Of a stretch of DNA of 32,228 bases, positions 27 to 28,608 are shown piece after piece. The DNA is from a virus: positions 1-32,228 of the IMG/VR virus record IMGVR_UViG_3300031920_000439; one strand, given 5' to 3'. Both the position numbers and the translations under genes were made by a program. Position 1 is the first letter of the stretch. Every line of letters starts with the position of its first letter. The notes beneath the pieces are model-generated. The model worked only from the letters and a program-made list of their open reading frames with translations, had not been told where the DNA came from and made no database searches.

Positions 27-2228
27 TTAGTTATTTTTTATTTCGTCATTATTCTTATTATCATCCAATAGTTGAAGAGCTTCTAATTCTATTCTTTTCT
101 TATCTAATTCAAGACTAGAATCTTTATATTCAGCATCACTTTTTGCTTTGTACCATCCAATTTCTTTTTCATAATCTTGTTTTTCTTCTTCTAATGTTAA
201 TTTAGCTTCATTAAGTTGTTTAACTTGTTGTTCTAATTTTTTAGCTTCAGAAGTAACTTCTTTCAATTGTTTATCCAAATCTTGAACTTGTTGGTCTAAT
301 TGTGACACTTGACTATCTTCTTGTTTCTTCTTATTAATAGATGTAAATACATCATATTTCATTTTTGTAAGTCCTGATGCAGTAGCTACTTGAATAAGTA
401 CTTCTGGATCAACCATACCATTTTTACTAAGTTCAACAGTAAGTTCTTTAATAACTTCCATTTCTCTTTTAATTTCTGAAGTATCAGTGATATGTATATC
501 AAAATCTGTAAAACTATAATGTTGAGGTAAAGCAGTAAATATTTTATTAAGTCTTTCTCCTAATATTAAAGTACCTGAAATTCCATTCTTATAAACTATT
601 TTTGAAATATTTAGAATATCAATTAACATTTCTCTTGTCATTAAATCCATTAACTTATAATAAGGCTTAGTTATAAAAGAAGATTGAGTTACTCCAACTT
701 CTACGTTTGTTACAGCATCTCTTTGTTCTATTCCTCCTAATTTCTCTCTAAAAACTCCTGTTATTCTTGAACAAGTATTTTCTACTCTTTCAATAGCTAA
801 ATCAATAGCTTGTATTGTTTGTAATTTTATTGAATCATCAAATCCAGCAAAAGAAGTATTTATTACCTCTCCTTCTTGTGAACTATCATATAATGCTAGT
901 CCAGATTTTTTATAGGCTTTAAACTTCATTAATCTTTCTGCAACATCTACTCCTAAAAATTTAGGTAGATGTGCTACATCAACTCAATCACCTACTGATC
1001 CTGATTCTGCAATAACATTATCTCTATAAAAATGTAGACAATCAAACTTGTCCTGTAAGTTTGCTGTTTTTATTACTAATGAAAATGGTTCTCCATTTCT
1101 ATCAGCATGAAATATTCCATTTACAGCTAATGTACATTCTTTTGGAGTATCTAAACTTCTTACTGCAGTTTCTGATTTTCCTAGTGTAATATAAATATTA
1201 GTATTAATTCTAACACCTTCATATCTATTAGTAATAAATTCTTTCTTTTTCTTATCAGCCTGAAGCCATTCTACCTCATATACAGGATAAGTTCTAAAAC
1301 GCTGTGAAGAACTATTTTCAAATGGTAATAATGGAGTTATTTCAAATCCACCTAATATCCCATCTGATATTGGATTATCAACAAGAGTATCCATACTTCT
1401 TAAATAAGTAGTATTTCCATCCGTTTGTCCATAATCATGTAAAGTTTCTAACTCTTTTAAATCATCTGTAGTTAATATGTCTCCATACTTTCCTAGAATT
1501 TGATCTTTAGTCATATAAGTTCTTATAACAGATCTTGCTGAATCTTTTAGATATGGTGATGTTGGATTTCTATCAATAAATGTATTTATAGGATTAAGAA
1601 CCTGTAAATCTACATTAGTATTTCCAGAAGTTGGCACTGCTTTATAATAACACATTCCAGAAATAAGTAAGTCTAATAAAATTATATTTCTTTTATTAGC
1701 AAAATCTATATTTCTTGAAATCATAGAATACTCTACAATATTTTGTCCTGCAACTTCATAATCTGAAATAAAATTTCTTTCAGTAATCTCTTGCAATTCT
1801 ATAAGTTGTTTTTCTATTGCTTTATCAGTTGTATCTGGTTTTCCTCCTACAATTGCAGTGTAAATCGAATTTCTTAAATGCTTATTCAATTCTTTAGCTA
1901 ATGTATTATTAATATGTAACTGTTTTTCTCTATGTATATTAGAAATTGTTTCTTTGTCTTTACAAGAAATTTTTGGTTGTACAGGCGTTGCCATATACTC
2001 CCCTAATAATACATCAATATGGTTTTTGGCTAAAGGAGTAAATTCAACAGAAGTAGGAGTTCCAATTCCATAATTTTCTTCTAGATGCCTAAATTGTTCA
2101 GGATCTCTTTTAGCATGATAATAATTATAAGCCTTGATAATTTGTGTCTTCTCATAAACTAATTCATTTATTGTCTTATCAATTTTTTTAATTATTTCTA
2201 TTTCTTTTTTATTCTTCTCTTGAATCAT
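27..2228 (-). CDS. Portal protein, with in-frame TGA read as Trp
   Basis: This is the probable portal protein, which forms the ring at the capsid vertex through which DNA is packaged. With TGA at 984-986 read as Trp, one frame of 733 residues runs from ATG 2228 to TAA 27. Under the standard code it breaks into pieces of 414 and 300 residues. The call rests on size, position directly after the large terminase, and overall character: an N-terminal helical part, a mixed alpha/beta middle, and a long charged coiled-coil tail (roughly the last 90 residues, rich in Gln, Lys and Glu). No short diagnostic motif is visible. The start overlaps the upstream 95-residue gene by 20 bases. Confidence 0.75.
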
Positions 2229-2496
2229 TTGTTCTTATAACTTTATATATTTCTAATCTCATATAATTTCTAGTTCTTAATTCTTCATATATAAAATCTA
2301 AAAATTCTTGATCACTTTCTGTATCATATCCGATTGTAGTTGGAACCATATAGCTAGGCATACCGAGTGTAAATACATAGGAAATACCTTCCTGTTCTAC
2401 ACGAAGTAGTCCGATATATTCTGCCTTATATAAGTTCTTTATATAATCATGAATCTTGTTCTCTAGGTCTTTTCTTCTCATTTCGTTCTTCTTCAT
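2209..2496 (-). CDS. Hypothetical protein, 95 aa, between terL and portal
   Basis: A small protein of unknown function. It begins with a charged, Lys/Arg-rich helix and then has a mixed alpha/beta segment with several aromatic residues. It ends with TAA and contains no TGA. It overlaps the portal start by 20 bases. If the terminase frame reads through its last TGA, this gene also overlaps the terminase end by about 70 bases, which is long. Either the true start is further inside or the terminase stops at TGA 2447-2449. Confidence 0.6.
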   Translation of the reverse strand: MKKNEMRRKDLENKIHDYIKNLYKAEYIGLLRVEQEGISYVFTLGMPSYMVPTTIGYDTESDQEFLDFIYEELRTRNYMRLEIYKVIRTNDSREE

Positions 2497-4504
2497 TTAA
2501 TGGTATTTTTCCATACTCTTTATAACCTCTAGCATTTGTATATCAACCTATATCCCTAAACTGTTTAGCTATTGCATCTTGGACAACAGGTTTTCTAAAT
2601 GAAAGTTCTTCATCTCCAAGTTCTGCCATTCCCATAGCGGCAACAATATCAAAGTCTTTTTTTCGCTCATCAGAATATGTTAACAATTGTTTTATAATTT
2701 CAGGAAAAGCTATTGTATGACAGTAATCTAATATAAAATCATAGATTAATTCTCTATAATGAACAATAACTTTTTCAGGAGTTGGTGTTCCATACATTTT
2801 AGAATTTCCTTTTGCAACATCAGGCATTGTAGCTCTTGGTCTTCTCATCAGTAAATGTAAATATTTTGCATCTCTAAAATATGTTAATATAGCAGTTCTA
2901 GTTGCTTCTAATACTGCTTTACAACCATAGTAAGTTAATAGTTTTGCTGCATTTTCATATGCATCTCTAATATCTCTTGGTCTTTCTTTATATATAGCAA
3001 CATATCCTGGCTCTTGTAATCCAAAAGTTCTCTTTTTTATAACTATACAAAATTCAGATAATTTATCAGAATAAGAAGAATCGTTCTTACCTATATCAAT
3101 GGAGTCAATTCCACCAACATATAAATTTCTATATGAACTTCCATCCTCTGATTTTAATGGGTGTTCTAAGATCTCAATCTTTCCATCGTCCCCTCCTCTT
3201 CATTTTAACTTCCTTGACTGTTCCCCATCTTCAGTTACTCATACTAAATGTCCATTTTTAGGTTTATCTACTGTTTTATATATATGAATAGCAGCATCTT
3301 GTTCTGCTAATTCTTCTCTTGGAAAAATATTATCTCCTTCTCCAATAAGAGCCTCTTCCATAGTATAGCAGAATTCTGCCTTATACATAAGAAGTCCTTT
3401 AGGGTCTGCAGCTTTTGCAATCCTTATTGCATCTTCTTCTGCTTTTCCTTTTATAGGATCTACTCACCCTCTCTTATCTGCCAAATGAAATGTTGTAACA
3501 TAAACAGGAATAAACATAGAACTTAATACAGCTTGTCCATCTACTGTATGTCTATTAACATACGGTAAAATGTTAAAAGTTTCTGGAGTAAAAGCCATAT
3601 TTCTAATACCTTCTATTGCAGGACCTTTATCACCACCAGTTCCTCAACCAATTCTTGTTCCAATCTTATCACCCATTACTTTAACGAGTGCTTCTCCTTG
3701 AATTCATTTTTTCTTAAATATTTTATCAGAACCAGCTTCTTCAAAAAATAGACGCTCTGTTCTATCACCCCTAATTTTCTCAGGCTTATCAGCAACTACT
3801 CCTTCAACTTCAGACATATGACCTGATTCTCTTCCGTTTTTATCACGCATAGATGCTCTTTTAAAGTATCTACTATCGTTTACCATTCGAACTCTTTTAA
3901 AAGCAGTTTCCGTTTCTTCATTTACCCAATCTAATTGAGCTCAAATTTTAGCTAATAAAGGTTTTAAGTGATTATCAGAAAATGCAGAAACCATGACTCT
4001 ATAGTTTGGAGTTGTAATATAAGGTCTTGCACATAAGCAAGCACCTATTTCAGAAAATCCAATACCACGAGATTTTAAAAGTCCTACATCTTTTCCTAAT
4101 ACTTCACAAATTTCTACATAATGAAAATACTCATATTGAAATACTAAAAAGGTTGGAAAATCTACTCCCCTTCCTTGCCCGGCTCTGTTTCCTTTCTTAG
4201 AAGTTTTAAGTCTATAAAAATTTAATCAAAAATAATTATCTCCAGTTACTCTATATCCATTTATTGTATAGCCATTATCACATCGTCTCATTCTTTCTTT
4301 TCAGAAATCTCTTTGTGTTTTAGAACCAACAAGAGCATTACTATAGTTACCTGTACTAGCTTTTGCTAAAGCATCTTGTCTGAATCAATCAGGGTTAAAA
4401 TCTAAACTATCTTTTTCATTTATTGGTTTATACCCAGTAATTTCATAAGATAATCGTGCATCAAATGCTTCTATTTTATCGTCTATTTTAACATCTCATT
4501 CCAT
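2426..4504 (-). CDS. terL: Terminase large subunit, many TGA codons read as Trp
   Basis: This is the packaging motor ATPase and nuclease. The frame from ATG 4504 encodes about 692 residues, but only if TGA is sense. Around twelve in-frame TGA codons occur, the first at codon 3, and all sit where Trp reads naturally (for example MEW, FKKKW, RIGWG, LVWV). A Walker A-like stretch SRGIGFSE lies near residues 145-152 and a Walker B-like RLFFEE near 251-256. The C-terminal half has acidic residues typical of the RNase H-like nuclease (GGIDSIDIGK, then DIVAAMGMAELG). The last TGA (2447-2449) could be the real stop; reading through it adds only WLYKELI before TAA. Start codon and upstream stop are two bases apart. 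Confidence 0.9.
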
Positions 4505-7022: not shown

Positions 7023-7320
7023 GATTCTGATTAATTATATTTTGTTGTTGTGAAATAGAATCTATCTTATAATTAATAGCGTCTTGCCGTTCTGTTAGAA
7101 CTTCATTAATAATATTAATTGAATCTATCTCGGCTTGATAAAGAAAAATTAACTGTTCTTGCTGTCTTTTAAAATTATCAAACTTATTTTTTTCATTATC
7201 TATATAGTCCATATTAAATGTTATTGCAAAATAGCCTAAAACAAGTAACAGAACCATAACTAAAACATGAATTATATTCTTAGAATATAATTTTTTCCCT
7301 ATTTCTTTTAAATTCTTCAT
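6913..7320 (-). CDS. Inner-membrane coiled-coil protein, i-spanin-like
   Basis: A protein of 135 residues with one N-terminal transmembrane helix (about residues 17-35, HVLVMVLLLVLGYFAI) and then a long Gln/Asn/Glu/Ile coiled coil, presumably periplasmic. This is the shape of an inner-membrane spanin, which helps fuse the two membranes at lysis. The 3' part contains the start of the next gene in another frame, and its own start lies inside the end of the exonuclease gene (41-base overlap). Function is inferred from topology and overlap only. Confidence 0.55.
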   Translation of the reverse strand: MKNLKEIGKKLYSKNIIHVLVMVLLLVLGYFAITFNMDYIDNEKNKFDNFKRQQEQLIFLYQAEIDSINIINEVLTERQDAINYKIDSISQQQNIINQNHENEINIIRDATLSEHSQWFSAKIDSIRHNYKPDNK

Positions 7321-9199
7321 TCTCTATTTGTTTTTTATGATATGCTAGCATTCGTTCTACATCTGTCTTTAAATAATCACATTCGTAAGTTGTACATCCG
7401 CCATCATGATCATAATGTATTAGCATTAGTAATTTTATATTAAATTTTGGATCGATCTTTTGAATCATCCACGCGTATGTAGATAGCTGCAGAGTATAAT
7501 GCCAAAAATTAGTATCTTCTATATTATTTAAAGGATACTCCATTGTAGAAGCTCTTCTTTTATTTCTGTCATAAAAACCTTTTTTCTCTATCTTTTTATT
7601 AGTGTTGTGAGTAACTATTAATGATCGCCCTGCTAAAAATGTATGACTTGAACTACTCACTTCAATACATTTAGTAGGTATCATATTTACTTTTACTACA
7701 CTTTTAATGTTCCTAAAAGAGGCTTTATCTGTTTTTGGATATTCTATTCCTCTTTGATTTCTGAGTAAAAATGGATTTTCTTTTGTAGTGAAACATACAT
7801 CCCATCCATCAAAAGTTTTTCCATCACAATATTTTTTTGCAAAAATTATACTTGGTTTTATCCCAAGTGTTGCTAGTAAATCTCTTAAATACTCTGCTTG
7901 ATATTTACGAGTTGTAGCCATTACATATCTTTTTCTTTTTTTATTATAATATCCATCAGCATCCATAAATCCTCTTAATAAATCTAATCTTTGATTATAA
8001 GAAGATACTAAATATTTATCAGGAATATGTTTATTTTCTAATAAATTTAATTTACTAAGTTCTGTCCTCAAACCAAATAAAGTTCTTGTTTGAATATTTG
8101 TTCTACCTGAAATATTTTCTCCTATATCATAACCCCTATTTTCTATCTCTTCCCAAAGTTTAGTATTTTCTCCAGTAGTGATAGAACCTGCTATAGAAGT
8201 TCCATCTCCAAGCCAAGCCCCTAATATATAAGGGTCTATTGGTAAAATCTTTTTAGAAATATTTAAAGGTTTAGGATTCAATATTTTTGGTAAATAATAT
8301 ACATTTTTACAATTATTATATTTATCTACTACCTCAACTAATTCTTCAGTTGTTAATACTACATCTTTAAATTTTCCTTTTCCTCTACTAAAAGATATTA
8401 ACCATCTATGTTCATGATCTGCAATTATGGATTCTCCATTATCAAATATTATTTCATAACATGGATTATAATGTATTTTAGAAATATTTTTTATATTTGT
8501 CTCATTACCATCCTTATCAAATATAATATCATTAGTATTAATACTCTCTAAAAGTTTATATCCTTTTGTGGTCAATATAGGAGTGTCTAATGGCAATCCT
8601 TTATAGTCTAATACATATACATCATATCCATCAACTATAATTAGGTCAGCTTGCCCAGCAAGTCGTAATTTACCATCAGGAGAAATCCTTGATAAAAGTA
8701 ATTCTGGATATACTCCTTTTTTTCCAATCTTTATTCTATTAGAAGTATCTGTTGTAAAAGAGCTTCTATCTAATCCAAGTTCTTTTAATTCTTTTGTTTG
8801 CCCAGATAAATGAGCAAGCTCATGTTCTCTATGAATAGCATTTCCTCTAACACAAGAAACTTCTCTTTTTTCTTCCCACTCTTTTAAAATTGATGTTTTT
8901 GCTGATATAAATTCTTCATCAGAAATACCAAATCGTTCATAGTAGGTATTATTAAATCTTTTTGTGGAAACCAATTCCTTTTTAACTTGTGAGAATTGAT
9001 CTAAATTTACAATACTTTCTAACGCTTTATACGAGGACCAAAATGCCTCATCAAATGTAGTAAACTTGTGAATCAGTGTAGTCACTGAAATACAAGCTTG
9101 TTCTGTATCTTTTATCCAATATTTGTGTAATTCATCATTATACTTTACAGTATCATCTTCCTTGTCAACTACTAGTTGACCATAATTAATTTTTTCCAT
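7280..9199 (-). CDS. PD-(D/E)XK exonuclease (RecB/Cas4-like) with intein
   Basis: A precursor of about 639 residues. The extein halves join to a nuclease of about 307 residues with the RecB-like signature: an early GNAIHREHE helix, a PELLLSR glutamate, GQADLII, the catalytic DYK, and QLSTYAW (the QxxxY motif). It probably acts on DNA ends in recombination or replication. Residues 201-532 are an intein inserted exactly after the catalytic Lys of DYK, so the nuclease is inactive until splicing. ATG 9199 is chosen because it directly follows the stop of the upstream gene (9201-9203); starts at 9214 and 9241 are possible. No in-frame TGA. Confidence 0.85.
   Translation of the reverse strand: MEKINYGQLVVDKEDDTVKYNDELHKYWIKDTEQACISVTTLIHKFTTFDEAFWSSYKALESIVNLDQFSQVKKELVSTKRFNNTYYERFGISDEEFISAKTSILKEWEEKREVSCVRGNAIHREHELAHLSGQTKELKELGLDRSSFTTDTSNRIKIGKKGVYPELLLSRISPDGKLRLAGQADLIIVDGYDVYVLDYKGLPLDTPILTTKGYKLLESINTNDIIFDKDGNETNIKNISKIHYNPCYEIIFDNGESIIADHEHRWLISFSRGKGKFKDVVLTTEELVEVVDKYNNCKNVYYLPKILNPKPLNISKKILPIDPYILGAWLGDGTSIAGSITTGENTKLWEEIENRGYDIGENISGRTNIQTRTLFGLRTELSKLNLLENKHIPDKYLVSSYNQRLDLLRGFMDADGYYNKKRKRYVMATTRKYQAEYLRDLLATLGIKPSIIFAKKYCDGKTFDGWDVCFTTKENPFLLRNQRGIEYPKTDKASFRNIKSVVKVNMIPTKCIEVSSSSHTFLAGRSLIVTHNTNKKIEKKGFYDRNKRRASTMEYPLNNIEDTNFWHYTLQLSTYAWMIQKIDPKFNIKLLMLIHYDHDGGCTTYECDYLKTDVERMLAYHKKQIENEEFKRNREKIIF
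7604..8599 (-). mobile_element. Intein with LAGLIDADG endonuclease, class 3-like
   Basis: This intein of 332 residues begins GLPLDTPILTT and ends IVTHN, followed by Thr as the first C-extein residue. It has two LAGLIDADG motifs (ILGAWLGDG and LLRGFMDADG), so it is a homing endonuclease. The first residue is Gly, not Cys or Ser. It has the Trp of a block-B HRW, a block-F Cys (KCIEV) and the block-G Thr (VTHN), which together match the W-C-T set of class 3 inteins. In that class a block-F Cys starts splicing in place of residue 1. Confidence 0.88.
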
Positions 9200-9200
9200 T

Positions 9201-9890
9201 TTATAATTCTTCATGCATTTTGTTAAAATTAAGATAACCACTTATTAGTTGCGCACTACATGCTATTCTAGGTAAAGCTTTCTCTCTTGTAAAACTATTA
9301 TTACCTACTGTTGTAACAACAACAAAGCCAATTACACTAGGAGTGCTATAGAGTGAATAAAATAGTGCAGAGTTTACATTATTTTGTTTCATTAAACTAT
9401 AGACAAACATTGAGTTATCTTTCATTTCTTTTAAGTTACTTACATAGTAGTAACTTTTATCTTCCAATTGCTCTAAAAATTCAGCTACAATTGATGTATT
9501 TATCTTTTGGTATTGAGAAGAAACCGGACTAGTGCCAGGAGTAACTACTTCACAAGTAGCTGAGACATATAAAAATGGAAGTCCTACTAAATTTGTATTT
9601 CCATTAGAGAATTCAAATACAAGAGCTCTATCTGCACCAACTTCTTCTGCTAATTCTAGTAACTCTTTCCTAATTTTAGGTGTTATATTTTTCCTGTGCA
9701 ATGCTGCTTCTGCATGTATTCTATCTTTATCATGTAGTTTCTGCTCAAGGTAAGTCTTTATTAAAGACGAATAGTTTTTCATTACTAAATATACACCGTA
9801 TATAATTATTACTACGACCATTACAATACCAGCAGCGGTTTGACCATAGTACTCAATGATCTTTTCAAATAATTCAATTAATCAAGTCAT
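9201..9890 (-). CDS. Membrane-anchored GAF-like protein, TGA-recoded start
   Basis: The frame runs 229 residues from ATG 9890 if the TGA at codon 3 is Trp (MTWLIELF). The N-terminus has an amphipathic helix and one transmembrane helix (IVMVVVIIIYGVYLVM), and a charged helix follows. The rest resembles a GAF or similar small-molecule sensor fold (RALVFEFSNG, then FYSLYS, then IGFVVVTTVG). A short membrane N-terminus at the head of a late operon could suggest a holin-linked role, but the large cytoplasmic-type domain argues for a sensor. It is the first gene after the promoter box at 9935-9942. Confidence 0.65.
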
Positions 9891-10064: not shown

Positions 10065-10754
10065 TTATATACTATAGTGTCTTAGTTCTTCTAATATTTT
10101 TGGAATGATAGGGTTTCTAACACAGTCCTCATCTGCAAATTCAATTGTACCAACATAATCCACATCTCTAAAAATATCTACTACATTTGCTAAACAGGAT
10201 TCTTCCTTATGTTTACGATCAACTTGTTCTATATCACCTAAAAATATATATTTAGAGTTATGTCCGATTCTAGTTATGATTGTTTTAAAAGTATGCCTAT
10301 CAATATTTTGAGCTTCATCTACTATAACAATTGAATTATCAATAGATAGCCCTCTAATATATGCAAGAGGCATTATTTCTAATAACCCTGTATGAAGAAG
10401 CTCTTTGGAAGCTGCTTTTCCACATAACTTATCTATATTTCAAGTATAAGACATTAAGAAAGGTTCCATTTTATCTTCATAAGTTCCAGGTGTAAATCCG
10501 ATTTGTTCCCCAGGGATAGTAGTTACTGACTTAATTAGTATGATTTTTTTAAAACCTCTATCTAATAAAGATAATGATGTAGCAAGAGTTACATATGTTT
10601 TGCCAACTCCAGAAGATCCTGTTGCCAGAGTTACTTCCTTGGTAAGTATTGCATCAATCAACTCTCTTTGCTTATTAGTTTTAGGTCTAAATCCTTCTAG
10701 TATATTAAACTGTTTTTCAGGCAATTTATTTTTATGTTTATTATTTTTTCCCAT
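10065..10754 (-). CDS. phoH: PhoH-like ATPase, one TGA read as Trp
   Basis: A PhoH-family P-loop ATPase of 229 residues, common in phages and thought to act on RNA or nucleotides. Walker A is GSSGVGKT (near residues 46-53) and Walker B is IVIVDEAQN, with the family FLGDIEQVD motif after it. The frame is interrupted at TGA 10440-10442, which must be Trp (SYTWNIDK). Read with the standard code, the two halves would each carry one Walker motif, so neither would be a working ATPase. It is the last gene before the terminator. Confidence 0.88.
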
Positions 10755-10863: not shown

Positions 10864-13094
10864 TTAACTACATTGACTTCATCCACATTCTTTACATTCC
10901 TTACAACCTCCAGTATAAATTACATCTCCGCCGCAAGAACATTTTTCAGCAACAGTAGTGCCATCTTTTATAAATGTTTTTAATGCTCTAATTACTCCAT
11001 TTTTCCAACTATGCAATGATTCAGAATCTGAATGCATACTATCAATAATTTCTACTACAGAACTTGTTAAAACTTGATTTCGCAACATACCTGAAAGTAA
11101 TCTAGCATAATTCCAATATTCTTTATTAAACATTCTAGATAATCCTCCTAGGGTGTTAATATAACCATAATTATCAGTATATCTAAAATCATATCTTGTA
11201 ATATTATTTTCTTTTATTTTAATAATTTGTCCTACTTTAATTGATTTTGGTATTGGAAACAAATCCATATCTTCTGGTCCACTAAATATTTCAAAAGGTT
11301 TTTCTTGTTTTATACCTATAAAAGCAATTCAAGGTGTAGTATCATTTAAAAAATGTATAACTTTTGCATCTAGAACTTCTGGACGAGCAAAGAAATTATC
11401 TAACCTTACTTTATCTTCTTTATAATTTAAAGTAAGAATTCCCTCTCTACAATTATCCCTATAAATAGTTACTCCTTTTAATCCTTTTTCCCAAGCATAT
11501 AGATATAATCTTTCAACTTCTTCTACTGTAATTATCTCTGGTAAATTAATTGTAGCACTAATTGCAGTATCTATATACTGTTGAGCCACAGACTGCATAT
11601 CAATTCTATCCCTCCAATTAATAGTATGTGAAGAAACAAAATATTCTGGTAATTTAGTAGTATTAAACTTAGTAGTATAATCAAAAGCAATTCCTGCAAA
11701 TACTTTATGATGAGCCTCTGTTCCACCTAATGCTTCTGTTTTTCTGTTAAGAAAGCAAAATTTGGTTCCATCCCTGTTGAAATATTTAACATAGATCCTA
11801 AAGATCCTGTAGGAGCAATTGATAGAAGTGAACAATTTCTTATGCCAATTTTTTTAAAAGCATTTATTTCTTCTTGAGAAAATAATTCTTTCAAAATTGT
11901 TGCATCAAATAATTCTGGTTTATATCCTGGAAAAACTCCTTTAATTTTAGCAAGATTAACAGATTCTTTTATAGCTACAATCAATTGAGTCTTTACTAGA
12001 GATCCAATAAAATCTATACTGTCTTTACTTCCATAAGTATGCCCCATTTTTATAAGAGCATCTGCAAACCCCATTATGCCAAGACCTATATTTCTATAAA
12101 TAAGAGCTTTATTTTTTTGTTCTTTAATTGCATGATTCTCTAAATTTTCATCAATAATAGAATCTAAGCCCCTTATACAAGTCCTTACATCATCTTCAAA
12201 TTCACCCCAATCAAACTCTGCTTGTAAAGTAAAAGGATTAATTATATACTCTGATATATTTTGTGAACCCAGATTACATGCCCCATCTTTAGGAAGAGGT
12301 TGTTCCCCACAAGGATTGCAAGTTTCTATTTGATAAGAATCAATAAATTCCATTAAATTATAATTTCTAAATCTATTTACAAATAAAACACCAGGTTCTG
12401 CATTATTATGTGCTTGTTTAATTAATAATTTATAAAGTTTAATTGGAACAATTTCATATGAAATACTTTGATTTTCATAAGTTTTATTAATTATCAGTGT
12501 ATATTCTATTTGATCTTTATAAGATTTATCTACTAATTTCATAAAATCATCATCAATTTCTACTGATAAATTCGCTTTATTTATTCTTGTGAGATCAGAT
12601 TTAATTGTAATAAAAGTATCAGCCTCTTTGTGTGTTATATCAATTGATAACATTAAAGCTCCTTTACGACTTCCACCTTGTTTAAGTGAATTAGTTGTTG
12701 CGTTAAACATCTCCATAAATGGAACTATTCCATCTGATTCATATCTTCCTTTAATTAAAGTTCCTTTGGGTCTTATTTTAGATAATGAAACTCCTTGCCC
12801 ACCTTGGGCTTTATAAGTTAAAGCCAGCTTAGTATTAACATTCATAATATCAACTAAATTATCTTCAACATATCCAGCAGAATAACAATTAGAATAGCTT
12901 CCATTGTTTAGTCCCCTATTACTTAATGTTCTTCCCCCAAATAGAAACTTCTTTTCTTGTATTAATTTTTTAACATCAGGATCATTTCCAGACACTCTAT
13001 TAAACCAATTTTCTAAAGATTCATTATTGTATCTATATTTTCCTTCCCATATTTTTTTACCCAAATCGGTATTTAACCACTGTTCTATTTGCAT
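10864..13094 (-). CDS. nrdJ: Adenosylcobalamin-type ribonucleotide reductase, frameshifted
   Basis: A class II-type ribonucleotide reductase of about 743 residues, which makes dNTPs for phage DNA. Visible motifs are NCYSAGY near residue 69, NPCGEQPL (the active-site Cys and Glu), GACNLGSQN, and CSLLSIAPTGSLGS. The C-terminus is a Cys-rich ribbon (CSCGGD, then GCKECKECGWSQC) typical of the B12-dependent class. Two in-frame TGA codons are Trp (TTPWIAF and CGWSQC). The frame shifts by -1 at a run of five A (11739-11743 on the plus strand): upstream it reads FAFLTEK and the other frame continues TEALGGTEAHH. One extra A restores continuity. Whether this is slippage, mutation or base-calling error is unknown. 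Confidence 0.85.
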
Positions 13095-13097
13095 ATA

Positions 13098-13745
13098 TTA
13101 GATTTTATATTTCCAAGTAAACCCTCCGGAAGTCTTCCGTGTCCCTTTACATACTTTTATTATACCACTTGCATCAATATTTAATTTTTCAGAAGCATTT
13201 TTAATGGATTCCCAATTTTTAATAAATTCTCCTGATTTTGAATATTGAGATATTTGTTTTTTATGTGAATTTCCAATTTTTAATTTAGTTTCTTCTGAGA
13301 CTATTTTGCCTTTTTGTGCTTTAGATATTTTTTGTTTTGTTTCGTCTGAATGTTTATTTCCTAAACAATTAGTATTTCCAATTCTATTAATAGAGAATTG
13401 TCTTTTCGTTTCTTCTGAATGTTTATGTCCCAAAATTCCTCCACCACCTAAAGTACAATTATATCCATTACTATAACTGTCATAGTAACTTATATATGCT
13501 ATTTCTAATTTATCTAAGATTGTTTTTAGTTTATCTTTATCACACAGAGTAATATCTTTTGTTTTATATATCTCTTCATATTCTAAATTATCTATTCCAT
13601 ATTTTTTTATAGCATTACCAAACTTAGTATTAGTTTTACTAGTTATATGTTTATGACTATTTTTTCTATTATTACTAGAAACTGTTTGTCCAATATAAAT
13701 TTTACCCGATGGGCTGGTATATTTATATATAATTCCTACTTGCAT
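13098..13745 (-). CDS. GIY-YIG homing endonuclease with NUMOD domains
   Basis: A protein of 215 residues. The N-terminus has the GIY-YIG core (GIIYKYTSPSGKIYIGQT), with a conserved Arg and an IAYISYY segment later. Two or three NUMOD3 repeats follow (GHKHSEETK, GNKHSDETKQKISKAQKG, VSEETKLKIGNSHK), and a NUMOD1-like C-terminus (SIKNASEKLNIDASGIIKVCKG). It is free-standing between a small gene and nrdJ, three bases from the nrdJ start, so it probably homes into the nrdJ region. No intron is evident around it. Confidence 0.9.
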   Translation of the reverse strand: MQVGIIYKYTSPSGKIYIGQTVSSNNRKNSHKHITSKTNTKFGNAIKKYGIDNLEYEEIYKTKDITLCDKDKLKTILDKLEIAYISYYDSYSNGYNCTLGGGGILGHKHSEETKRQFSINRIGNTNCLGNKHSDETKQKISKAQKGKIVSEETKLKIGNSHKKQISQYSKSGEFIKNWESIKNASEKLNIDASGIIKVCKGTRKTSGGFTWKYKI

Positions 13746-14119: not shown

Positions 14120-14398
14120 TTATCTTGTTAAAATTGTTAATGTATCTAACATCTTTCAATGCCAATCGCTTAGATTGTTATTACGCAATTCTCTGTTCTC
14201 ACATACTGCAAACATATTTTACCATTGTTTTCTTAATTTCCCGTGATTGCTAGTAACATCACCAGCTAATTCGGGATTATATTTTCTAATTGTTTTTGAT
14301 ATAAATTTTTTAGATGGATTACCCAGCTTTAACTGTATAGCGTGATAAGTTTCTCCATCTTCTCTTAATTCAATGATTCTCTCTTCTAATTCAGTCAT
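14120..14398 (-). pseudogene. Helix-turn-helix small protein split by an in-frame TAA
   Basis: From ATG 14398 a frame of 59 residues reads MTELEERIIELREDGETYHA and continues through a helix-turn-helix-like segment (GNPSKKFISKTIRKYNPEL), ending KLRKQW then TAA at 14219-14221. The same frame continues after that stop for 33 codons (NMFAVCENRELRNNN), crosses one TGA (WHWKM), and ends at 14120. The continuity suggests one DNA-binding protein of about 92 residues broken by a point mutation. Two separate tiny genes remain possible. It lies just after the tRNA. Confidence 0.45.
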
Positions 14399-14470
14399 AA
14401 TATTTTAATTTAACTTCTATTTATCTATTTGCAGGCTCGACAAGAGTTGAACTCGCATCGTGCGGTTTTG

Positions 14471-15075
14471 CTTACCACTACAGTTTTCACTGCCATAAAA
14501 TGTTTGTGGTCTGGACTATATCTTCACCTTATACTAAACTTAGGTGGAGGATCATCTAGTCTCTACGGGCTGAATTACTTCATTCCCTCGGTATTGCCAT
14601 CAACATTATTTGTTAAGGTTTCACCGATATTATCCTCTCCATCCATAATGTTTCCACTATGAAGCTCCATTAGATTAAAATTATTTTTATATTCTTTCAA
14701 TTTATTTATTGAGATAGAAGAAGTATAATTTTGACTAAAAGATATTGGAATCATATATACATCTTCAGTTTCTAAATCTACTCCTACAAAGTAATCTATC
14801 TCTTCAGCTGTATATAAATGCGTTTTATGTTCAGTTTTATTATGAGTCATTTTTCTCATTGGAACACTTTTATACCCATTTCTCTTTTCTACTGTTACTG
14901 TTTTTATTTGAATACGTAAATATTTATTATCTTTTTCTATAATCATATCTACTTTACCATTTTCAATAACTGGCTTAAATACATTAAGCCCATTTCTAAT
15001 CAATTTTTGTTCTACTATTAAAGAGCCTAAATAACCCTTCTCAATTTTTCCTATTTCCATAATTTTAATCTGCTA
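14471..15075 (-). mobile_element. Group I intron inside the tRNA anticodon
   Basis: An insertion of 605 nt that ends in G and follows a T of the 5' exon, as group I introns do. The 5' splice site is ambiguous by one or two bases in the T run 15075-15077. Core elements on the minus strand are an R-like segment ending CCGTAGAGACTA (14557-14574) and the S-like AAGATATAGTC (14514-14524). Their GACTA/TAGTC parts form P7. CACCT/AGGTG forms P8 (14525-14529 with 14542-14546), and CAGT-GAAA-ACTG (14481-14492) is a P9-type hairpin with a GNRA loop. P3 can form from GAGGAT inside the end of the ORF. I could not locate P1. Confidence 0.9.
14575..15060 (-). CDS. PD-(D/E)XK homing endonuclease encoded in the intron
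   Basis: A protein of 161 residues. The core is GYLGSLIVEQKL, then KVDMIIEKDNKYLRIQIKTV, that is a Glu-containing first helix, an Asp, and QxK: the PD-(D/E)XK arrangement. The cyanobacterial tRNA-intron endonuclease I-Ssp6803I is the known example of such an enzyme in a tRNA group I intron, and the layout here is the same kind. The ATG lies 15 bases into the intron and the 3' end overlaps the catalytic core. It presumably cuts intron-less copies of the suppressor tRNA gene to spread the intron. No TGA codon is used, so it does not depend on the tRNA it interrupts. Confidence 0.82.
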   Translation of the reverse strand: MEIGKIEKGYLGSLIVEQKLIRNGLNVFKPVIENGKVDMIIEKDNKYLRIQIKTVTVEKRNGYKSVPMRKMTHNKTEHKTHLYTAEEIDYFVGVDLETEDVYMIPISFSQNYTSSISINKLKEYKNNFNLMELHSGNIMDGEDNIGETLTNNVDGNTEGMK

Positions 15076-15117
15076 AAGACCGCTGTGTTACCATTACACC
15101 ACGAGCCTATTTTTTAA

Positions 15118-25147: not shown

Positions 25148-25381
25148 ATGGTAATTAACAATGATGGTAAATTAGCTTCAACAGCTGAACAAATTTCTGG
25201 AGAATTAGAAAAAATGATTCTTGAAAAATATACAACAGAGCAATTACGTGTTGCTTATGTGAATTCTTTAAATAGTCCTGTAACTTATGTTGATCATAAA
25301 CTTTGGATTGCTTTTAAATTTGAAGATGGTTCAACATTAGCTTTTTCATTAACAGGAAATGACCAAGAAAAAGAAATATAG
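25148..25381 (+). CDS. Hypothetical protein, 77 aa
   Basis: A small acidic protein of 77 residues (MVINNDGKLASTAEQISGEL), with a helix followed by a beta hairpin (HKLWIAFKFEDGSTLAF). Not recognised. It ends with TAG one base before the next ATG, so the two are probably one unit. Confidence 0.55.
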   Translation: MVINNDGKLASTAEQISGELEKMILEKYTTEQLRVAYVNSLNSPVTYVDHKLWIAFKFEDGSTLAFSLTGNDQEKEI

Positions 25382-25382
25382 T

Positions 25383-25736
25383 ATGGTAAAGGTGTTTGGT
25401 TTACCACACCTTCATGAAAATACTGCAATTAAATTTAATTCAACTGGTTTATCATTATCAGTTGGATTAAATGTTGAAGCTCCTATTGCATTTGTTCTTA
25501 CTTATAATAATTTTGATGGTATGGTATTTAAAGGTAAGTATATGCAACTCTATAAATTAGCTATTAATATTCCTGCTCAATATATTAGTAATGCAACTAT
25601 TATTAATGAACAAGCTCGTTTATTAGCAATGGTACAAGCCGATATTGCAATAGCTAAAATTGGTACATATTCTTTTGTACCTTTAATTAAAAATGTACCT
25701 ACATTTCTTAGTAATCAAGAAATAAATAAACAATGA
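25383..25736 (+). CDS. Hypothetical protein, 117 aa
   Basis: ATG 25383 (MVKVFGLPHLHENTAIKF) is chosen because it directly follows the previous stop; an ATG at 25359 lies inside that gene. Beta-rich, about 117 residues, ending at TGA 25734-25736. Reading that TGA as Trp would extend it 35 residues to TAA 25838, but the extension contains a C(UUCG)G-capped stem and looks more like RNA structure. Function unknown. Confidence 0.55.
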   Translation: MVKVFGLPHLHENTAIKFNSTGLSLSVGLNVEAPIAFVLTYNNFDGMVFKGKYMQLYKLAINIPAQYISNATIINEQARLLAMVQADIAIAKIGTYSFVPLIKNVPTFLSNQEINKQ

Positions 25737-25977
25737 TATGATTTGAGTTCCAAAGCCTCTTCGGAGGTGGCGGATACTTATAACAATGCTTTTTCATCAT
25801 TTTTAATAAATGATAATGCTTTTAAATTATTCTACTAATATAGGGTTTAAAAGCTAAAAAACAAATAACATCCCAAGTTATTGAGGGCAGCAAGTTTCTT
25901 TTTATCGAATTGATTGATAGTTCGCGAATATGAAAAGTTTTAGCTGTAAAATACATTAATCATTAAAATTTAAAATT
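25737..25977 (+). promoter_or_regulatory. Structured leader with paired-hairpin element, copy 4
   Basis: CCTC-TTCG-GAGG forms a short stem with a UUCG tetraloop near 25755. Further on, AGCTAAAA (25852-25859) pairs perfectly with TTTTAGCT (25938-25945). It encloses CCC-AAGTTATTGA-GGG (25872-25887), the signature string of the repeated element. It precedes the 282-residue gene by 32 bases. Confidence 0.55.
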
Positions 25978-26826: not shown

Positions 26827-27071
26827 TAATAATTCTTATATTGCTTATTGCATTATAAGTAGGTAGTGACTGACACTAATGGTTAATGTTGTTAATTGAT
26901 TGCCTTAGTTAACAACAGCTCCTCATATTTGTATGGGGAGCTTTCATTGAAATTTGTGGAGAGGAAAAATATTTTAAACTAAGTTTAGTAAAACATTCAC
27001 ATCATCTGGTCCAAACTAATGGAGAAAGAATGAAAGAGGTGCGATGCCTTAAATTACTTAATATTAATATT
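26827..27071 (+). other. Intergenic region with hairpins
   Basis: It contains GTTGTTAA/TTAACAAC (perfect 8 bp, near 26887-26915) and AGCTCC/GGGAGCT (near 26916-26943), then TTTCATTGA, a weak relative of the ATTGA loop signature. Spurious ATGs occur from 27030. No gene is supported before 27072. Confidence 0.45.
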
Positions 27072-27386
27072 ATGAAAAATATAGGAAAAAAAATTAGAGT
27101 TGGAAATAAATTATATATTCCCTCTTCTTTTCATGTTTATCGTGGTGTTGATGATTTTATCGGAGGAATTGCTGTTATCAAAAAAATTGAAATGAGCAAG
27201 ATTCTTCCAATTACTCATATTAACAGTACCATGGTGGTTTTTGAAGAAAGACCTAATATAAAATATAACTTGCGAAGTATTATTGAACAACAAAGGGATC
27301 TAAAAAGGAAGTTTGGAAAAGCAATTGCTCATCCAGATTCTGATTTAAGACCTAATTTTAATCAGCCGAAAGCTGATTGGCATTGA
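27072..27386 (+). CDS. Hypothetical protein, 104 aa
   Basis: ATG 27072 (MKNIGKKIRVGNKLYIPS) gives about 104 residues, beginning with an SH3/KOW-like strand set (GNKLYIPSSFHVYRGVDDFIGG) and ending in a Pro/Asn-rich tail. The frame stops at TGA 27384-27386; read as Trp it adds WLMIMYLEDW before TAA. An upstream ATG at 27030 would add a poorly composed 14-residue extension. Function unknown. Confidence 0.55.
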   Translation: MKNIGKKIRVGNKLYIPSSFHVYRGVDDFIGGIAVIKKIEMSKILPITHINSTMVVFEERPNIKYNLRSIIEQQRDLKRKFGKAIAHPDSDLRPNFNQPKADWH

Positions 27387-27426
27387 TTGATGATTATGTA
27401 TTTAGAAGATTGGTAAAACTAAGTAA

Positions 27427-27605: not shown

Positions 27606-27878
27606 ATGAAAAAAACAGATGTAGTTATATATTGTGTAAATGAAATACAATATGAAGAAATAAAAAAGCATATTATGTCAAATAAAGATGCTTGGCGTTC
27701 AATTGATACTTGGCAAAAAGTAGGACAATATCATCCATGTATTAATATTACTAGTGGTACTCATGGTTCATATAAAATTATGAATAATTTTTATAATATT
27801 TTAACCTTTGAACAGTGGAAAAAACCAATTAATTTAACAACTGGTTTAGATTTAATAACTAATTTAATAGGTATATAA
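27606..27878 (+). CDS. Hypothetical protein, 90 aa
   Basis: A protein of 90 residues (MKKTDVVIYCVNEIQYEEIK), alpha/beta in character with WQKVGQYHPCINITSGTHG in the middle. It is not recognised. The stop overlaps the next ATG by one base (TAATG), so it forms an operon with the next two genes. Confidence 0.6.
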   Translation: MKKTDVVIYCVNEIQYEEIKKHIMSNKDAWRSIDTWQKVGQYHPCINITSGTHGSYKIMNNFYNILTFEQWKKPINLTTGLDLITNLIGI

Positions 27879-28378
27879 TGAACAAAATAAAATTTAAATA
27901 TGCTCCTGGTCAACGAGTAAAGGATAAAATGACTGGTTTACAAGGTATCATTAGTGCTTCAATAATAAATATTGATAAATGTCATCAATCTAGTGTACAA
28001 CCATTTTCACCAGATGCTAAGACTATGTTAGATTCTTGGATTATTGATAATGAACAACTTATGACTCTTCGTGGTGGAGATCTTAGTGGTGTTAATGAAC
28101 TTGATAATATTAAAATATTTGAAGTTGAGTTTAAATTTACTCCAGGTGATGTTGTAAAAGATAAAACTCTTGGTGTTAAAGGCACTATTACTAAAGCATT
28201 ATATTATCTCAACCGTTGTATTCATTATTATATAATACCTAAAAGTAAAGATTCTGTAAAAATTGCAGAAGTAGTAGTATGTAGAGAACAATCTTTAGAA
28301 CTTATTAAACCTGTAAAAGTTAAAAAAGAAGAAGAAAAACCATTAGGTGGACCCTCAATCAAAAGTATAAGACTATGA
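27878..28378 (+). CDS. Protein with two tandem SH3/KOW-like repeats, 166 aa
   Basis: Two copies of one domain lie in tandem: KFKYAPGQRVKDKMTGLQGI (residues about 4-23) and EFKFTPGDVVKDKTLGVKGT (about 86-105). Each is followed by a similar strand pattern with a Cys. The (Y/F)xPGxxVKDK motif resembles small beta-barrel domains. The duplication is clear; the binding partner is unknown. The C-terminus is Lys/Glu-rich. It overlaps the next gene by 4 bases. Confidence 0.65.
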   Translation: MNKIKFKYAPGQRVKDKMTGLQGIISASIINIDKCHQSSVQPFSPDAKTMLDSWIIDNEQLMTLRGGDLSGVNELDNIKIFEVEFKFTPGDVVKDKTLGVKGTITKALYYLNRCIHYYIIPKSKDSVKIAEVVVCREQSLELIKPVKVKKEEEKPLGGPSIKSIRL

Positions 28379-28608
28379 GTAAAAAATCTAAAGCTACATC
28401 TAAACAAAAAAGATTAGTAAAAAAACGTGCTATTAAGATGGCTAATAAAGCTAAATATCAAGGATGGGCACATGATGGACAAAATACTAAATCTAAAAGA
28501 AGTAGAAAAGGAAATGCTAAAATGAGGTTAGCTAAAGCATTTCCTCATTCTAGTGGTTTTTGTGGTAATTTAGCATGTATTAAATGTTATTCAATTAAAA
28601 TGACCTAA
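28375..28608 (+). CDS. Very basic small protein with Cys cluster, 77 aa
   Basis: A protein of 77 residues with more than a quarter Lys/Arg, starting MSKKSKATSKQKRLVKKRAI. Near the C-terminus lies FCGNLACIKCYS, a compact Cys cluster (CxxxxCxxC) that could hold metal. The composition suggests RNA or DNA binding. Start overlap ATGA with the upstream gene implies coupled translation. Confidence 0.6.
   Translation: MSKKSKATSKQKRLVKKRAIKMANKAKYQGWAHDGQNTKSKRSRKGNAKMRLAKAFPHSSGFCGNLACIKCYSIKMT

Follow-up and report, generated by a model that had tools for sequence, protein, structure and literature searches.

A putative homing group I intron interrupts the anticodon of a tRNA gene that decodes UGA in a probable crAss-like phage

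As far as the accessible text of two studies of crAss-like phages goes, these phages carry a tRNA with anticodon UCA and read TGA as tryptophan (Trp) mainly in late genes, and group I introns and inteins are common in their genomes (PMC7886860, PMC12386605). In the same text introns are described for protein genes, including the many group I introns that Yutin 2021 reports alongside TGA-to-Trp recoding (PMC7886860), and none is mentioned in the opal suppressor tRNA (PMC7886860, PMC12386605). A review by Hausner likewise placed every phage group I intron known in 2014 in protein-coding genes (PMC3984707). Introns within tRNAs of recoded phages, the arrangement described here, have a parallel in Lak phages, where Devoto 2019 reported introns in tRNA-Tyr and tRNA-Thr and termed them enigmatic; the accessible part of that paper names no group I class, homing nuclease or suppressor tRNA for them (PMC6784885). 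Kienbeck 2024 (PMC10879173) described theta ribozymes at the 3′ ends of suppressor tRNAs and proposed that they act in tRNA maturation. They resemble the intron reported below in being catalytic RNAs with a proposed part in suppressor tRNA maturation, but they act by HDV-like self-cleavage rather than by splicing. In the literature that we searched, the main texts of open-access papers, no code-changing suppressor tRNA interrupted by a group I intron was reported. Stop-codon recoding by phages and mobile introns of group I occurred there only separately; the locus described here joins them.

The interrupted tRNA gene and its intron

The DNA analysed is a viral sequence of 32,228 nt (hereafter the window). 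ARAGORN with introns allowed identified in it a tRNA(TCA) with a 605-nt intron; run without introns, the program reported no tRNA at this locus. On the minus strand, AGGCTCGTGGTGTAATGGTAACACAGCGGTCTT (15108-15076) joined to CAAAACCGCACGATGCGAGTTCAACTCTTGTCGAGCCTG (14470-14432) gives a 72-nt tRNA with anticodon UCA, in which a 7-bp acceptor stem (A1-U72, with G73 beyond it) and the D, anticodon and T arms are all present. The predicted exon-exon junction of this tRNA is GUCUUCAAAAC. The gene and its neighbour are laid out as follows.

15076 to 15108, minus strand: 5′ exon, positions 1-34 of tRNA-Trp(UCA), last base U34 (ARAGORN with introns, coordinates)
14471 to 15075, minus strand: group I intron, 605 nt, inserted after U34 and before C35 and ending in G (omega G) (RF00028, empty sites, and the model R1 introduced below)
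14432 to 14470, minus strand: 3′ exon, from C35 to discriminator G73, CCA not encoded (ARAGORN with introns, coordinates)
14219 to 14398, minus strand: small ORF of 59 aa directly after the tRNA (tblastn)

The splice junction could be fixed independently of ARAGORN, with U at the end of the 5′ exon and G at the end of the intron: the 7-nt anticodon loop arises from this exon join alone, and the joined sequence, GTCTT^CAAAAC, is identical to that of intronless relatives. By tblastn the small ORF has matches of 49-68% in some 20 loci, a number that includes many overlapping records, and because the same ORF neighbours the tRNA in most relatives we regard the locus as orthologous among them. A DNA pattern made from the exons found no further copy in IMG/VR, and a check of 14280-14480 for theta ribozymes gave no HDV-like match in Rfam at E values of up to 1.

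A second intron, 620 nt long, sits at exactly the 34/35 site of the UCA tRNA in a related record (L042) and is homologous to that of the window but diverged from it. In a 781-nt search the Rfam group I model RF00028 matched the window intron at 47.8 bits (E=5.4e-11) over 14493-14687 (model positions 1-253), slightly below its gathering cut-off of 50; at gathering level Rfam reported no intron in the window, and RF00028 gave no match to the L042 intron. We drew a group I structure by hand on one of the two sequences and compared it across both, so that the pairing figures that follow come from two sequences. In this structure 97.3% of cells are paired; none of 500 shuffled controls reached the observed pairing, and sliding the partners reduced it to 35-51%. 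Seventeen pairs differ on both sides between the window and L042, 10 of them in intron helices (one each in P2, P4, P5, P6a, P7, P8 and P9, three in P9.1). These two-sided changes, although from two sequences only, are a strong signal for a maintained ribozyme. The parts of the intron referred to below are these.

14644 to 14661, minus strand: P2 hairpin, CAUAGUG-GAAA-CAUUAUG, with a compensatory change in L042
14508 to 14561, minus strand: P7, GACUA/UAGUC (GAGUA/UACUC in L042), enclosing the 3′ strand of P3 and P8
14474 to 14510, minus strand: P9 and GAAA-capped P9.1, with four compensatory changes in L042
14665 to 14667, minus strand: proposed internal guide GAG, which would pair with exon CUU (P1), with U-G at the splice site
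14575 to 15060, minus strand: intron ORF of 161 aa, a PD-(D/E)XK homing-type nuclease (PDDEXK_5, I-Ssp6803I family; PF11645)

The predicted core from P3 to P9, with P7 and the R and S elements, and the combination of a U-ending 5′ exon with a G-ending intron assign the insert to group I introns. The U-G guide pair is proposed: the GAG guide is identical in both phage introns and its layout matches that of the cyanobacterial tRNA-Leu intron, and the P1 so formed consists of three pairs that lie within coding sequence and is put forward solely from conservation. For P1, a local hairpin within the opening 15 bases of the intron was dropped, as it is not kept in L042. DNA patterns made from the intron core and the 3′ junction matched L042 only or nothing.

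The nuclease ORF occupies nt 16-501 of the 605-nt intron and overlaps P1 to P6, so that its translation and the folding of the ribozyme should compete. It ends in TAA and contains no internal TGA, which would make it independent of the tRNA that it interrupts. Its product matches PF11645 at 68.2 bits (E=9.8e-19, cut-off 26.1) and, by sequence, PDB entry 2ost, which we take to be the structure of I-Ssp6803I (E=3e-4). The D...QxK signature (D38, Q51, K53) is intact in both phage copies and aligns with 2ost, and on profile and signature we assign the predicted protein to the I-Ssp6803I/PDDEXK_5 family. The nuclease of the L042 intron is 58% identical, with the frame open in both copies. No other relative of the window nuclease was found in IMG/VR, and none in a collection of genome contigs; any further phage matches were remote.

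A sequence-only reading of the window had placed a 72-nt tRNA with anticodon UCA at 14432-15108 and a 605-nt insert of group I type between positions 34 and 35. Its coordinates, tRNA length and anticodon are correct to the base by ARAGORN with introns, the site of the insert is borne out both by ARAGORN and by the sequence of intronless relatives, and the covariance-model check that it had proposed for the group I assignment came out in its favour, together with the compensated helices. P1, P2 and P3, which we located in the intron, were absent from that reading, as were the empty sites of relatives described below, and the nuclease ORF had been overlooked.

UGA as a tryptophan codon

The terminase large subunit (TerL) of the window is 27-45% identical, in pairwise comparisons, to those of crAss-like and related records among the matches listed, and the source phage is probably crAss-like. 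Four genes with in-frame TGA codons bear on the decoding of UGA.

2426 to 4504, minus strand: TerL, 12 in-frame TGA and one TGG (phrog_6681, E=5.5e-63)
27 to 2228, minus strand: portal, one in-frame TGA (phrog_6547, E=5e-45)
10065 to 10754, minus strand: PhoH, one in-frame TGA (PF02562, E=3e-54)
10864 to 11835, minus strand: C-terminal part of a ribonucleotide reductase, two in-frame TGA (PF02867)

We aligned TerL with 52 IMG/VR relatives and found Trp in at least 45 of the covering relatives at seven of the 12 TGA columns. Exchange between TGA and TGG is frequent at those seven columns, and the remaining columns are mostly aromatic. In MT835470, whose TerL is 45% identical and free of TGA, five of the 12 columns are Trp, and all six distant TerLs aligned, standard-code crAss-like ones included, hold Trp at columns 68 and 188. 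The earlier contention that late genes require TGA to be read as Trp is thus borne out by the Trp columns and the TGA/TGG exchange, and UGA=Trp in this phage is well supported on sequence grounds. With its UCA anticodon, and with TGA at Trp columns, the tRNA is predicted to be a UGA-to-Trp suppressor and is presumably charged with Trp.

TGA is not spread evenly over the window. The left and middle gene blocks contain 28 TGA and 37 TGG codons, versus 3 and 27 in the right block (p=0.002). The three right-hand TGA codons fall one each in 25359-25838, 27030-27416 and 27878-28417, each within the final quarter of its extended ORF, and one of them overlaps the following start as ATGA. It is as if TGA were still a stop in the right-hand genes and two codes were in use in one genome.

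Other features of the window were noted in passing. An exonuclease-like gene at 7280-9241 includes an intein-like segment with LAGLIDADG_3 and has nine TGG and no TGA. The ribonucleotide reductase is split over two frames (11727-13094 and 10864-11835, sharing 11727-11835), through a frameshift, a sequencing error or something else, and just upstream of the reductase gene lies a free-standing homing-type nuclease gene (13098-13745; NUMOD3, I-HmuI-like NUMOD).

Unusual UCA tRNAs occur in some relatives. Two sets (L003, 3281-3376, with L005 and L094; L011, 1555-1654, with L014) have long arms like those of selenocysteine tRNA and occupy a comparable place upstream of terL in relatives whose TerL uses TGA for Trp; with the Rfam tRNA-Sec model the two sets score 38 bits (E=1.5e-6) and 29.8 bits (E=2e-4), in each case short of the gathering cut-off. 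It would be odd for a tRNA of this shape to decode UGA as Trp. A weak HDV-like ribozyme match (L011, 1653-1733; E=0.035) starts at the 3′ end of one of these tRNAs, the position known for theta ribozymes. Another relative (L035, 990-1082) has a class II UCA tRNA, with a long variable arm, that scores 46.9 bits with the ordinary tRNA model. The UGA suppressor seems to have arisen several times in these relatives.

Relatives, empty sites and the role of the intron

Relatives have their UCA tRNA upstream of terL and on its strand, and the small ORF usually comes next. Thirteen distinct UCA tRNAs were compared (12 from relatives and that of the window), a comparison that the sequence-only reading had itself proposed; 11 are uninterrupted, and the two with an intron, in the window and L042, are the only known copies at the UCA tRNA here. 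Intronless relatives with the same code led us to reject the idea of the intron as a conserved component of the code switch. Two near-complete related records (178 and 213 kb) each have a full tRNA array and a single UCA tRNA, which lies apart from the array and near the late block. Further group I introns occur outside tRNAs in L054, L055, L056, L057 and L059 (RF00028, up to 98.5 bits); by ARAGORN the RF00028 matches in relatives other than L042 do not fall in tRNAs.

Two records, L043 and L045, have flanks 93-99% identical to those of L042 and lack the intron, that is, they hold empty sites. The joined flanks of L042 and L045 agree throughout the 130 nt that end 25 nt before the junction, then differ at five positions in the final 25 nt of the 5′ exon and at three in the 10 nt downstream of the junction; the seven differences closest to the intron all have the window base in L042 (7/7). 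The outgroup L037 keeps an L043-like anticodon stem and variable loop, which points to intron gain in L042 with co-conversion. The L042 exon flanks thus look co-converted, with the caveat that L037 also matches L042 at two D-arm sites; several exon differences between L042 and L043 could be lineage noise. These comparisons indicate an invasion of the suppressor tRNA gene by a homing group I intron, and such natural pairs with and without the intron make its cost, timing and homing directly testable.

We consider it very likely that a mobile group I intron of the bacterial-tRNA type, with an I-Ssp6803I-like nuclease, inserted between positions 34 and 35 and is mainly selfish. Direct support comes from the predicted exon structure, the conservation of the group I fold, the nuclease family, the empty sites and the Trp residues at TGA positions; splicing, and the phage's need for it, we infer. 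A pre-tRNA would be transcribed at the head of the late genes, the exons of the anticodon stem would pair with each other, and exon CUU would pair with the internal GAG guide. Attack by guanosine after U34 followed by exon joining would create the UCA anticodon, and the mature tRNA, presumably Trp-charged, would decode UGA in late genes that include terL, portal, phoH and nrdJ. Intronless alleles of co-infecting phages would be cut by the endonuclease, and repair would copy the intron and short exon flanks into the cut allele. Because the tRNA is split inside its anticodon, the altered code should work only after intron removal, and splicing is probably required for the recoded late genes. A selfish RNA element would thus occupy the one gene underlying the altered code, and with the intron in that gene splicing would become a precondition for late protein synthesis. 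Since the tRNA is needed, a selfish intron must splice well, and on the simplest account an intron in an essential tRNA would be near-neutral if splicing is efficient.

The sequence-only reading had gone further. Its claims of an intron within the anticodon of a UGA-decoding tRNA-Trp and of late genes that need this tRNA stand, whereas its proposal that the intron acts as a gate, timer or sensor is not supported: related phages of like recoding and gene order mostly lack the intron (11 of the 13 UCA tRNAs are intronless), as do the relatives 93-99% identical to L042, and the intron encodes a homing-type nuclease. Mobile-element behaviour explains this distribution, so regulation is not required. 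We think it unlikely that the intron is an evolved gate in which the speed of splicing, or competition between ribosomes on the ORF and folding of the ribozyme, times the late-gene code switch. The overlap of the ORF with the core would suit such a gate, as would the place of the tRNA at the head of the late block (in relatives, away from the tRNA array), the enrichment of TGA as Trp in the left and middle blocks, and the proposal that catalytic RNAs beside phage suppressor tRNAs are players in code switching (PMC10879173); yet the same recoding runs without the intron in most relatives, the closest relatives of L042 lack it, a mobility gene lies inside it and no sensor domain was found. We give little credence to a switch in which ribosomes, as long as they are plentiful, translate the nuclease ORF across the ribozyme core and so block splicing. 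If such a switch existed, the suppressor tRNA would appear only after the translation state of the infected cell had changed, and with it UGA=Trp decoding and late proteins.

It is also unlikely that the intron is dead, leaving the tRNA gene broken and the suppressor supplied from elsewhere, by another phage copy or by the host. The RF00028 score slightly below the cut-off, the failure of Rfam to find the L042 copy and the fact that the window is a 32-kb fragment, such that another UCA copy could exist, would fit a dead intron. However, pairing is preserved by two-sided changes in eight intron helices, the nuclease frame is open in both copies at 58% identity, the tRNA arms are intact, TerL retains 12 TGA codons and each near-complete related record has a single UCA tRNA. 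A fusion of tRNA halves with an unrelated intron-bearing sequence, by chimeric assembly or chance, is conceivable for a metagenomic contig but exceedingly improbable, given that in an independent contig (L042) a diverged intron occupies precisely this site, with the same downstream neighbour.

Kinship to bacterial tRNA introns

We built a covariance model, R1, from the two phage introns and compared it with introns of cyanobacteria and of these phages. R1 matched cyanobacterial tRNA-Leu(UAA) introns at E values down to 6e-13 (1.05 Mb searched), whereas the best E value for other group I introns of the phage relatives was 0.02 there; overall, introns of phage protein genes came no better than 2e-3. 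Among 21 cyanobacterial group I loci chosen by RF00028, 10 matched R1 at E<=3e-9 (fMet, Leu and one Arg; best 5.8e-15), with top scores of 60.5 bits for tRNA-fMet and 57.2 bits for tRNA-Leu. Run on three whole genomes R1 gave no match, even where the locus alone had matched at E=6e-13, and that search is hence uninformative. Among the introns tested, then, the window intron appears closest to those of cyanobacterial tRNAs, and its kinship and its position in the anticodon loop indicate an intron of the type found in bacterial tRNA anticodon loops.

The cyanobacterial tRNA-Leu(UAA) intron shares with the phage intron the anticodon site, 34/35, the exon CUU, the GAG guide and an adjoining P2 with a GAAA loop. 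The phage intron differs from it in having a UGA-suppressor tRNA as its host gene, in being about twice as long and in encoding a nuclease, for which the tRNA-Leu introns examined, at only about 225-312 nt, leave no room. The cyanobacterial tRNA-fMet intron resembles the phage intron in giving the best covariance match (60.5 bits) and in its nuclease family (2ost), and the end of the intron and the 3′ exon are near-identical in the two (GGUAAG|CAUAACC in one, GGUAAG|CAAAACC in the other). The tRNA-fMet intron of Synechocystis is reportedly the home of I-Ssp6803I (Bonocora and Shub 2001, as listed in PMC3984707). Unlike the phage intron, the tRNA-fMet intron lies at 33/34, in a different tRNA and in a bacterial host, and a shift in register at a similar target, CA-AACC, would be a plausible origin of the phage intron.
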